From Williamsia muralis NBRC 105860 (GTDB lineage Bacteria > Actinomycetota > Actinomycetes > Mycobacteriales > Mycobacteriaceae), in assembly GCF_001598915.1 (NCBI RefSeq), contig NZ_BDAP01000006.1:248001-312000 (forward strand): a stretch of DNA of 64,000 nucleotides, in the 5' to 3' direction. Of the stretch, positions 7,154 through 10,706 are shown piece after piece. The position numbers and the translations under genes are program-made. Position 1 is the first letter of the stretch. Every line of letters starts with the position of its first letter. The notes beneath the pieces are model-generated. The model did no database searches, had not been told where the DNA came from, and saw only the letters and a program-made list of their open reading frames with translations.

Positions 7154-9603
7154 GGGGAGTAGCACTGGCCCAATTGCGGGCACACAAGGGACGCTATGTG
7201 GCGTCGGTCTTGGCGGTGGCCATCGGTGTGGCATTTGTCGCCGCGACACTCACACTGACCGCGACGTCCACCGAATCGGTGCGCGCGTCGGTGGCAGCAC
7301 AGTTCTCGACAACCGACGCGGCGGTATCGGTACCGTCCGAGTTCGCAGATCAGACGGGAGAGCAACTGGCGAATGTGTCCGGCGTACAAGCGGTTGCCGT
7401 CGACCGTAACCGCTTGGTCAGCGTGACCAGTGGCACGAAGACGTACTCGCAGGTGGAGCTGACCGCACTGGCAGACGACGAGCAGTTGCGATGGCAAAAA
7501 CTGACGGTCGGCGTGTTCCCACAGGGCGACCGTCAGGCGTTGGCATACGCGGGCTCGAACTTCGCTGTTGGACAACGGCTTTTCGTGCGACCGGACGTCG
7601 ACACCGCCACCGACCGGACCGCTGTGGAGATCACCGTGGTGGGTCTGGTCGAGCGTGGTGACGCCACGTCAGGCGTGCCGCAGTTGTTCGCGCCCGGCGC
7701 CGCCGTGTCCGCGGTGGACTCCGGGCGGAGCGATGATCGAGATGATGTGGTGATCAGACTCGCGTTCGCGGGGGACACCGACCCGGCGTCGGTCATGACT
7801 GCGGTGGACGACGTGGCCTCGACCGTCCCAGGGGCCGAGGCCATGTCGGGTGAGGCTGCCGCCGACCGGGTGGTCCAACAGTTCACCGGAGGGTCGGTGA
7901 TCCTGGCCTCCGTGCTGCTCGTGTTCGCCGCGATCACCGCCATGGTGTCGTGTCTGGTGATCGCCAACACCTTTGCCGTACTGATCACCTCACGAACCCG
8001 GGAACTCGCGCTGCTGCGTTGCATCGGGGCAGACGCATCCCAGGTGCGGTCCGGCGTTCGGATGGAGGCACTGCTCCTCGGTGTCGTGGCCTCGGTGGCA
8101 GGTGTGGTCCTCGGGATCGGAGGTGTCGCGCTGGCCACCTGGGTGACCCGGATGACCGGTGCCGAGTTGCCGTTGACCCACTTGGCGATCCCGTTCACAG
8201 CCGTGCTCGTGCCCGTCGTACTCGGCGTGGTGATGACGCTGCTCGCGGCCACCGTCCCGGCGCGACTGGCGACAAGGGTCTCCCCGCTGGCGGCCTTCAC
8301 CACTGTCGCCTCGTCGGAGCCGCGCGGCCGTAACATCTTCCGGATCACTGCCGCCACGGTTCTGGTTCTCTTCGGCACCACTGTGTTGATCTGGGGGATC
8401 GGACAGAAATCGGTTCCCGCAGCAGCATTGGGCGGCGGTGCGACGTTCCTCGCAATCATGCTGTCCGGTGTGGTTCTCGTGCCGCCGATCGTCCGGGCAG
8501 CGGGATCGGCTGCCGCACTGTTGCTTCGGCGCACGGCCGCGGGACCGGTCGCCGAACTGACGGGCGCAAACGCCGGGCGGGCTCCACGGCGCACGGCCGC
8601 AACGGCGTCGGCCCTCATCATCGGCATCACCCTGACGACGATGATGGTGGTGGGCGCGCAGGTGGTGCGGTCGAGCGTGAGCACGTTGATCTCCGACATG
8701 CACCCGGTCGATCTGATCGTGTCGTCCGGTACGCCGCTGTCGGCTCCACTGGTCGAGTCGATCCGGACCACTGAAGGCGTGGCTGCGGCAGTTCCGTTGA
8801 CCCGTACGAAGATCGATGTGAACGGGGTCGCGCTGAACATCGCCGCCGTGGACAGCTCGTCCTTGTCTGCGGTGATGAGGTCGGGCAGCGCCCCCACCGC
8901 GGATGAGATCGCGCTGGCATCAGAAGATCAAGCGCTCGCGGGCGTGCAGGGCGGTGAGCGGGTGACCGTTCTGGCCGGAGGGATCACGAAGACGATGACG
9001 GTGGTCGAAGGCGAAGCCGGTTCCTTCGCGGATCGCGCATCGGTGGGCGGGGCGCCGGTTCCGACCGGGATGGCCGTGCGTCTGTCCTCCTTCGGGACGG
9101 GCAGCGCGGACACGGTCACCACCCTGCGTGATCTTGTCGCCGCCTCGTCGCCCGACGCGACCTTCTCCGGCGGTGTGGAAACCCAGCAGCAGCTCGACGA
9201 CATCCTCACCCTGCTGTTGCGGATCGTATTGGCGCTGCTCGGTGTCGCCGTGGTGGTTGCTCTCATCGGTGTGGGAAACACCATGGCGCTGTCGGTGATC
9301 GACCGCCGACGTGAGAATGCGCTGTTGCGGGTGATCGGCCTGAGCAGCCGGGGGGTGCGTGCGATGCTCCTGGGCGAAGCCACGATCATCGCTGCGGTGG
9401 CGTCGGTCGCGGGAGTGGCTCTCGGTACCACCTACGGGGTGGCCGGCGCGGCCGCGATCGTAGGCGCTGACCGCGTGTCCATACCCGATCTTCCGTGGGT
9501 CGAGATGGTGGTGATCGTGGTGGTCGGTGGACTGGCTGGGCTGCTCAGTGCAGCTCTGCCCGCCAGGCGCGCGTTGCGCGCCGATCCCGCAGCCGCGCTG
9601 TAG
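7150..9603 (+). CDS. FtsX-like ABC transporter permease
   Basis: Permease partner of the preceding ATPase, 817 residues. It has the duplicated FtsX layout: an N-terminal transmembrane helix (about residues 16-36) and a large extracytoplasmic domain; three helices near 250-390; further helices and a second extracytoplasmic domain; and three final helices ending with the FtsX-like stretch ALPARRALRADPAAAL. MacB-type permeases do not conduct substrate through the membrane. They couple ATP hydrolysis to work on substrates or proteins outside it. The ATGA start overlap gives tight coupling to the ATPase. The substrate cannot be told from sequence. Confidence 0.92.
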   Translation: MRGVALAQLRAHKGRYVASVLAVAIGVAFVAATLTLTATSTESVRASVAAQFSTTDAAVSVPSEFADQTGEQLANVSGVQAVAVDRNRLVSVTSGTKTYSQVELTALADDEQLRWQKLTVGVFPQGDRQALAYAGSNFAVGQRLFVRPDVDTATDRTAVEITVVGLVERGDATSGVPQLFAPGAAVSAVDSGRSDDRDDVVIRLAFAGDTDPASVMTAVDDVASTVPGAEAMSGEAAADRVVQQFTGGSVILASVLLVFAAITAMVSCLVIANTFAVLITSRTRELALLRCIGADASQVRSGVRMEALLLGVVASVAGVVLGIGGVALATWVTRMTGAELPLTHLAIPFTAVLVPVVLGVVMTLLAATVPARLATRVSPLAAFTTVASSEPRGRNIFRITAATVLVLFGTTVLIWGIGQKSVPAAALGGGATFLAIMLSGVVLVPPIVRAAGSAAALLLRRTAAGPVAELTGANAGRAPRRTAATASALIIGITLTTMMVVGAQVVRSSVSTLISDMHPVDLIVSSGTPLSAPLVESIRTTEGVAAAVPLTRTKIDVNGVALNIAAVDSSSLSAVMRSGSAPTADEIALASEDQALAGVQGGERVTVLAGGITKTMTVVEGEAGSFADRASVGGAPVPTGMAVRLSSFGTGSADTVTTLRDLVAASSPDATFSGGVETQQQLDDILTLLLRIVLALLGVAVVVALIGVGNTMALSVIDRRRENALLRVIGLSSRGVRAMLLGEATIIAAVASVAGVALGTTYGVAGAAAIVGADRVSIPDLPWVEMVVIVVVGGLAGLLSAALPARRALRADPAAAL

Positions 9604-9630
9604 TACACGGCCCGGGCGGGCCGGGTCGGC

Positions 9631-9665
9631 TTGACAAGAAATAGAACGCGTGTTCGAATCTGGGC
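9631..9665 (+). promoter_or_regulatory. leaderless promoter of the radical SAM gene
   Basis: A perfect TTGACA -35 box at 9631-9636 is followed by a 17-base spacer and TCGAAT at 9654-9659 in the -10 position, then 6 bases to the ATG at 9666. Transcription should therefore start at or next to the A of the ATG. There is no Shine-Dalgarno sequence. The LexA-type box at 9642-9657 fills the spacer and overlaps the -10. Confidence 0.65.
9642..9657. promoter_or_regulatory. LexA-type SOS box
   Basis: TAGAAC-GCGT-GTTCGA matches the mycobacterial SOS consensus TCGAAC-N4-GTTCGA at 11 of 12 defined positions, with the correct 4-base spacer. The single mismatch is A for C at position 2. It sits between the -35 and -10 of the promoter for the radical SAM gene, where bound LexA would block RNA polymerase. 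Confidence 0.75.
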
Positions 9666-10706
9666 ATGCGGTGGGAAGGGCAGTTGCTGGACGCCGGAGA
9701 CGAGAAAGAGGCGAGCGATCCGTCTCCGGCGCTGCCCGGCCTGAGTCGCGCAGGGCTGGTCCGGTCGGTGCGCACCCCCGACTTCGACGGGGTCACGTTC
9801 CATGAGGTGCTGTGCAAGAGCGCGCTGAACAAGGTTCCGGAGAGTTCGCAGGTGCCGTTTCGCTGGACCATCAACCCGACCAGGGGCTGTCTCCATCAAT
9901 GTGTCTACTGTTTCGCGCGTACCACCCACGAATACCTCGATCTCGATGCCGGCCGTGACTTCGACACCCAGATAGTGGTCAAGGTGAATGTCGCGGCGGT
10001 GCTGCGAAAAGAGTTGATGCGCAAGAGTTGGAAGCGTGAGCCCGTGGCTCTGGGAACCAACACCGACCCCTACCACCGGGCTGAGGGCAGGTACCGGCTG
10101 ATGCCCGGCATCATTCGCGCGCTCGCCGATTCGGGTACGCCCATGTCGATCCTCACCAAGGGCACGCTGCTGCGTCGCGATCTCAAACTCCTTGCGGCAG
10201 CAGCCAAATCGGTGCCGGTGTCGGTGGGCGTCTCGCTGGCGCTGCTCGACGAGACCCTGTGCAAACAGGTCGAACCCGGCACGCCCTCGGCCCGTGCGCG
10301 CCTCGATCTGATCGAGGCTGTCCGTGAGTCCGGCCTGGACTGCCACGTGATGGCCTCACCCATCCTGCCCATGCTCAGCGATTCGCGCGCAGACCTCGAC
10401 AACCTGTTCGCACACCTGGCACAGGTGGGTGCAACGTCGGTCACCGCGTTTCCACTGCACCTACGCGGATCTACTCGGGGCTGGTACATGTCGTGGCTCG
10501 CCGAGCACCATCCTGCCCTGGTCGGCAAGTACCGCCGGCTCTACGGTCACGGCGCCTACGTGGCCCCGGAATACCGAACGTGGTTGCGCGACAGGGTTGA
10601 TCCGATGCTCGAGCACCACGGTCTCAGCGGCGACCGGCAGTCCGGCCTGCGTGAAGCGGTACGCGAGGCAGCGGCGGTCGAGACCCCGCAGCCGACGCTC
10701 TTCTGA
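9666..10706 (+). CDS. radical SAM protein, Rv2578c family, probably SOS-induced
   Basis: Radical SAM enzyme of 346 residues related to the SplB-like Rv2578c family. The iron-sulfur motif is CLHQCVYC (C-x3-C-x2-C) near residue 77, within the start of a partial TIM barrel (TINPTRGC). Family members resemble spore photoproduct lyase, but their reaction in non-sporulating actinomycetes is unknown. No intein interrupts the motif. The promoter carries a near-perfect LexA box, so induction by DNA damage is likely. From memory, M. tuberculosis Rv2578c is also listed among genes with SOS boxes. A DNA repair or nucleic-acid role is an inference from this regulation. The gene appears to be leaderless and monocistronic. 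Confidence 0.88.
   Translation: MRWEGQLLDAGDEKEASDPSPALPGLSRAGLVRSVRTPDFDGVTFHEVLCKSALNKVPESSQVPFRWTINPTRGCLHQCVYCFARTTHEYLDLDAGRDFDTQIVVKVNVAAVLRKELMRKSWKREPVALGTNTDPYHRAEGRYRLMPGIIRALADSGTPMSILTKGTLLRRDLKLLAAAAKSVPVSVGVSLALLDETLCKQVEPGTPSARARLDLIEAVRESGLDCHVMASPILPMLSDSRADLDNLFAHLAQVGATSVTAFPLHLRGSTRGWYMSWLAEHHPALVGKYRRLYGHGAYVAPEYRTWLRDRVDPMLEHHGLSGDRQSGLREAVREAAAVETPQPTLF

Follow-up and report, generated by a model that had tools for sequence, protein, structure and literature searches.

What controls the gene for a radical S-adenosylmethionine (SAM) enzyme in the soil bacterium Williamsia muralis NBRC 105860, and what does that control say about the enzyme? The gene lies in a 64-kb stretch of contig NZ_BDAP01000006.1 (positions 248,001 to 312,000; here called the window), and the bases directly before its start codon combine promoter-like hexamers with a palindrome of the LexA type (Table 1). 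We consider it probable, with good confidence, that LexA represses a leaderless promoter here and that the gene belongs to the SOS response; its product probably acts on damaged DNA. Judging from sequence comparison, the palindrome is very likely correctly read as a LexA operator.

The original prediction, made from the letters of the window alone, had described a TTGACA -35 box, a 17-base spacer, and a -10 hexamer six bases before the ATG, together with an operator agreeing with the mycobacterial SOS consensus at 11 of 12 positions. Inspection of the sequence confirmed each of these: the spacer (9637-9653) separates TTGACA from TCGAAT, the six bases CTGGGC separate the -10 from the ATG at 9666, and the one deviation of the operator from TCGAAC-N4-GTTCGA is an A replacing C at position 2. 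The operator had also been placed inside the spacer, which holds for most of it but not for its last four bases, TCGA (9654-9657), which are shared with the -10 hexamer. The hexamer stands where it was predicted but is noncanonical, having C at the position where a sigma-70-type promoter requires A, and is partly operator.

Table 1. Features of the promoter region and of the radical SAM gene (window coordinates)
Feature	Position	Strand	Basis
-35 hexamer TTGACA	9631-9636	+	Sequence read; column conservation in 50 box-aligned promoters
LexA-type operator TAGAACGCGTGTTCGA	9642-9657	.	One mismatch to TCGAAC-N4-GTTCGA; putative LexA binding site
Possible extended -10 element TG, inside operator	9651-9652	+	T in 49/50 and G in 50/50 promoters
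-10-like hexamer TCGAAT	9654-9659	+	First four bases are the operator end
Predicted transcription start at the A of the start codon (leaderless)	9666	+	6-nt distance to -10, no Shine-Dalgarno-like motif
Rv2578c-family radical SAM protein, 346 aa	9666-10706	+	NF038135, 513.5 bits versus cut-off of 430
CX3CX2C cluster motif, residues C75-C82	9888-9911	+	C75, C79, and C82 invariant in 41/41 aligned sequences

In the proposed mechanism, RNA polymerase would read TTGACA, the 17-nt spacer, and the -10-like TCGAAT and would begin transcription at the ATG or directly beside it, giving an mRNA that lacks a ribosome-binding leader. A LexA dimer on the operator would overlie the -10 as well as the 3' end of the spacer, blocking polymerase, and RecA-driven cleavage of LexA upon DNA damage would free the promoter. 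The 3' half-site GTTCGA would be used twice, as operator and as promoter, in the form (TG)T-TCGA-x-T. The anatomy and its conservation are observed directly; LexA binding, the transcription start, and induction are what we infer.

Eighty homologous loci were compared. After eight loci with identical 120-bp contexts were dropped, 72 distinct contexts remained, 68 of which carry a LexA-type box: 64 were cleanly scored (three or fewer mismatches), and four (L023, L045, L078, and L095) were added after a second look. In 56 of the 64, the box lies 7 to 9 nt before the start codon. Most of these close boxes have a single mismatch (n = 45), with none in six, two in four, and three in one, and a Shine-Dalgarno-like motif was found in none of the 56 contexts. 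Of the remaining eight, seven have a long leader with such a motif; the other (L073, gap of 11) has no such motif. Taken with the 6-nt distance from -10 to start codon in the window, this comparison lends good support to the predicted LexA control and leaderless mRNA.

Column counts were made on a box-anchored alignment of 50 promoters (the 56 close-box promoters minus six near-duplicates). In the -35 element, the first T is T in 50/50 and the G is G in 44/50, and the distance from the -35 to the box is 5 nt in 44/50 and 6 nt in 6/50. The GTTC of the 3' half-site is invariant (50/50), preceded directly by T in 49/50. The final T of the -10 (9659), which lies outside the operator, is likewise T in 50/50, with A or C directly in front of it in 49/50. 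Mismatches in the inner four bases fall entirely in the 5' half-site (18, versus 0 in the 3' half-site); counted as changes on the protein tree, the numbers are 13 versus 0 (sign test, p 0.00024). A 3' half-site that is read twice would account for this asymmetry. Because the G of the TG at 9651-9652 is also an operator base, a promoter role for this dinucleotide can only be proposed.

Relatives across the Actinobacteria share this arrangement. In a draw from the phylum, the family was present in 68 of 149 genomes, with 12 over the cut-off. An upstream box was found at 25 of 28 newly listed loci (L223 repeats L085) and at 9 of 14 further loci. Three loci were not counted: L232 and L237, where the best box-like stretch lies within coding sequence, and L235, where the box precedes a fragmentary upstream copy of the gene. 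This fragmentary copy, with its LexA-type box (G139:C4:74599-74721), precedes the main copy by about 0.5 kb. At wider-phylum loci with a 10-nt gap (n = 10, examined by eye), a canonical TANNNT begins at box position 15 and ends six bases before the start, so the -10-to-start distance is kept while the register of operator and -10 moved.

Could the palindrome resemble a LexA box by chance, or serve another regulator? Weak matches are common, as the window holds ten sites with two or fewer mismatches, nine of them with two; the sole one-mismatch site is 9642-9657. The box of the radical SAM gene, however, occupies a nearly fixed place in 68/72 contexts, whereas a box with at most one mismatch occurs in only 4 of 12,237 60-bp segments drawn at random from the homologous loci (0.00033). 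In addition, sister genes in other phyla bear LexA boxes of their own lineages. We regard either form of this explanation as highly improbable. The same genome encodes LexA (TIGR00498, 260.4 bits versus a cut-off of 110.95), with lexA flanked by three boxes that have one mismatch or none, and contains 83 places with at most one mismatch to the consensus versus 14 for the reversed pattern. Five of its nine perfect boxes (L001, L002, L004, L005, and L007) precede near-identical stretches in which the -10 is TAGACT-like or similar and are apparently copies of one repeated element; some of them resemble a PafBC-type promoter. Four one-mismatch boxes (L096, L101, L102, and L103) share a flank (GCGGACGATC...CAGACCTGACTCTGAGA-like) that marks another repeated element with a LexA box.

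Several observations weigh against a LexA-repressed leaderless promoter. TCGAAT does not have the TANNNT form of a sigma-70-type -10: a strict scan demanding A at -10 position 2 found no sigma-70-type promoter within 9540-9760, and this A, normally needed, is absent from 50/50 promoters, all of which carry an unusual C there. Four of the 72 contexts have no box: L077 (a Tenericutes metagenome-assembled genome), L092 (a second copy), and L093 and L094 (both in dnaE2 operons). A clear box is also wanting at 3/28 and 5/14 loci of the phylum draw. In a Tsukamurella orthologue (L201, about 1455-1500), 5 nt rather than 4 separate the half-sites, with the promoter spacing still 17 nt. A mycobacterial mitomycin study does not mention Rv2578c in its main text. 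Finally, the upstream neighbor, which encodes an FtsX-like permease and is read in the same direction, stops 62 nt before the radical SAM gene, and a terminator search between the two found none; thus, read-through could add unregulated expression.

The permease gene and the noncanonical -10 would also suit an alternative in which LexA does control the gene but its mRNA has a leader: transcription would come mainly from the ABC-permease operon or a promoter further upstream, and LexA would act as a partial roadblock. Against this, the promoter block is the sole conserved upstream stretch, mean information outside it being 0.15 bits (-100 to -15), and Shine-Dalgarno-like motifs are absent from all 56 close-box genes but present in 7/8 longer-leader genes. 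We consider this alternative unlikely and retain the leaderless promoter.

The A at box position 2 had been predicted to tune LexA affinity. We rejected it as a special tuning base: A recurs in 14/50 promoters, with eight parsimony changes on the tree, and it also occurs in two dnaE2 boxes (L145 and L148). Boxes with one mismatch also outnumber every other class at recA (16/30), dnaE2 (13/30), and ruvC (14/30), the recA and dnaE2 counts being lower bounds owing to doubtful reading direction (stops in the assumed frame) at two of 30 recA and nine of 30 dnaE2 loci. Three dnaE2 boxes (L145, L152, and L159) have TACACT immediately 3', with a possible GTG or ATG start a few bases further; leaderless SOS promoters with another register, as at these loci, may be common.

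What does the promoter guard? The product begins with the conserved MRW/VRW start and matches the Pfam Radical_SAM model (E 4.5e-14). Its best named relative is a W. muralis record (99% identity), and five further Williamsia records follow (72-73%); a record titled Kitasatospora arboriphila (L046, NZ_JNYV01000009.1) is also 99% identical and is probably a mislabelled Williamsia. At L045 and in seven genomes (G101, G193, G150, G096, G119, G088, and G073), the family match extends about 1.8-2.0 kb instead of 0.95 kb, which suggests that the protein carries inteins, in line with the intein model NF038136.

The modelled structure has the overall fold of spore photoproduct lyase, the match spanning residues 15-325. 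One alternative is that the enzyme is a true spore photoproduct lyase. Sequence identity is only 14-15%, and the spore photoproduct is known from endospores. The solved lyase uses a further cysteine, C140, as hydrogen donor, whereas only the three cluster cysteines are invariant among the 41 aligned sequences (drawn from 65 first-pass proteins); the next-best columns are C226 (26/41) and C50 (18/41), so, judged by column conservation, a fourth invariant cysteine is lacking. A true lyase is accordingly quite improbable. A further alternative, that the enzyme acts on RNA or protein rather than DNA, SOS control answering some need during damage that is not the repair of lesions, seems to us possible but rather doubtful: the lyase scores 5 Z units above the structures cited for that alternative, and a divergent copy of the gene stands beside dnaE2 in two genomes. 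The predicted DNA-damage function is a fair inference, although SOS control of SplB-like radical SAM genes had already been published. The family assignment and the modelled fold are results in hand; the favored product, a spore-photoproduct-lyase-fold enzyme most likely acting on damaged DNA, would carry out chemistry different from that known for the lyase.

The divergent copies lie 18 bp after dnaE2 (L093 and L094; G043:C263 and G056:C90). In a third genome (G048:C291), a radical SAM copy with an internal stop lies close to the dnaE2 end. These dnaE2-adjacent copies score below the family cut-off. A dnaE2 operon as the general context of the gene was rejected, dnaE2 lying beside it in 2 of 137 loci, plus G048.

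The PA0069 sister family (NF033668) was sampled in 15 of 72 matching plasmid records, three of them actinobacterial and Rv2578c-like and one from Gemmatirosa. The window protein falls outside that family (209.3 bits versus a cut-off of 360). An exact GTTC-N7-GTTC precedes the gene at seven of nine alphaproteobacterial loci, two of the seven from one genus; at L211 the motif has one mismatch, and at L208 it is absent. Over the full 47,976 bases that the 15 loci comprise, this pattern occurs nine times forward and zero times reversed. Of two gammaproteobacterial loci, L209 has CTGT-N8-ACAG, and the Legionella locus has none. The PA0069 family resembles the Williamsia case as a sister family with LexA boxes of other types upstream and differs in that the window protein lies under its cut-off. 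That related genes are preceded by LexA boxes of three different lineage types points to a damage role that is old or has been selected repeatedly.

If the favored reading is right, the locus offers a clean testable case in which operator and -10 share bases and the start codon follows at a fixed distance, and a widespread enzyme family can be counted as part of the DNA damage response. The enzyme's substrate, if found, could add a direct DNA repair reaction outside the spore photoproduct system. A broader proposal, that a phylum-wide double-coded element (a LexA half-site serving as extended -10 for a leaderless promoter, with an unusual C at -11) guards an SOS-induced, lyase-fold DNA-lesion enzyme with an undescribed radical reaction, is offered tentatively and may well prove too bold.

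In the literature, no paper was found linking Rv2578c with LexA, nor any linking PA0069 with LexA, in a search without most subscription papers. The accessible part of one study lists no SplB homologue for M. tuberculosis (PMC2587704). In Streptomyces venezuelae, a radical SAM gene, vnz_31145, has a LexA chromatin immunoprecipitation peak and 19.97-fold mitomycin induction (PMC9380542); it differs in its reported box, TCGACCGTTCGCTC at -61. A pattern combining this published box with the Rv2578c-family start was found in 0 of 392 Streptomyces genomes, a draw possibly without S. venezuelae, so that vnz_31145 is at most a candidate member of the Rv2578c family.

Among known systems, the solved spore photoproduct lyases (PDB entries 4fhf, 4fhc, and 4k9r) differ from the window protein by the low identity given above and by the absence of a fourth invariant cysteine from its family. 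M. tuberculosis lexA is a parallel for the promoter, being an SOS gene of the same order with a leaderless mRNA; it is another gene, and the accessible text says nothing about an operator within the -10 (PMC3062782). The nearest precedents are published LexA/SOS regulons: SplB (COG1533) is stated to be under SOS control in several species (PMC8565304), its LexA regulation was predicted for alpha- and betaproteobacteria (PMC3323433), and the Gram-positive core LexA regulon includes "a radical SAM protein" (PMC7739468). Like the Williamsia gene, these SplB/COG1533-kind genes are under LexA, in Proteobacteria, Bacteroidetes, and Balneolaeota; in the accessible portions, the leaderless, -10-overlapping geometry and its conservation are not described, and the family of the actinobacterial gene is unstated. 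SOS control of SplB-like radical SAM genes is thus already in print, and what the present analysis adds is the geometry and its conservation.
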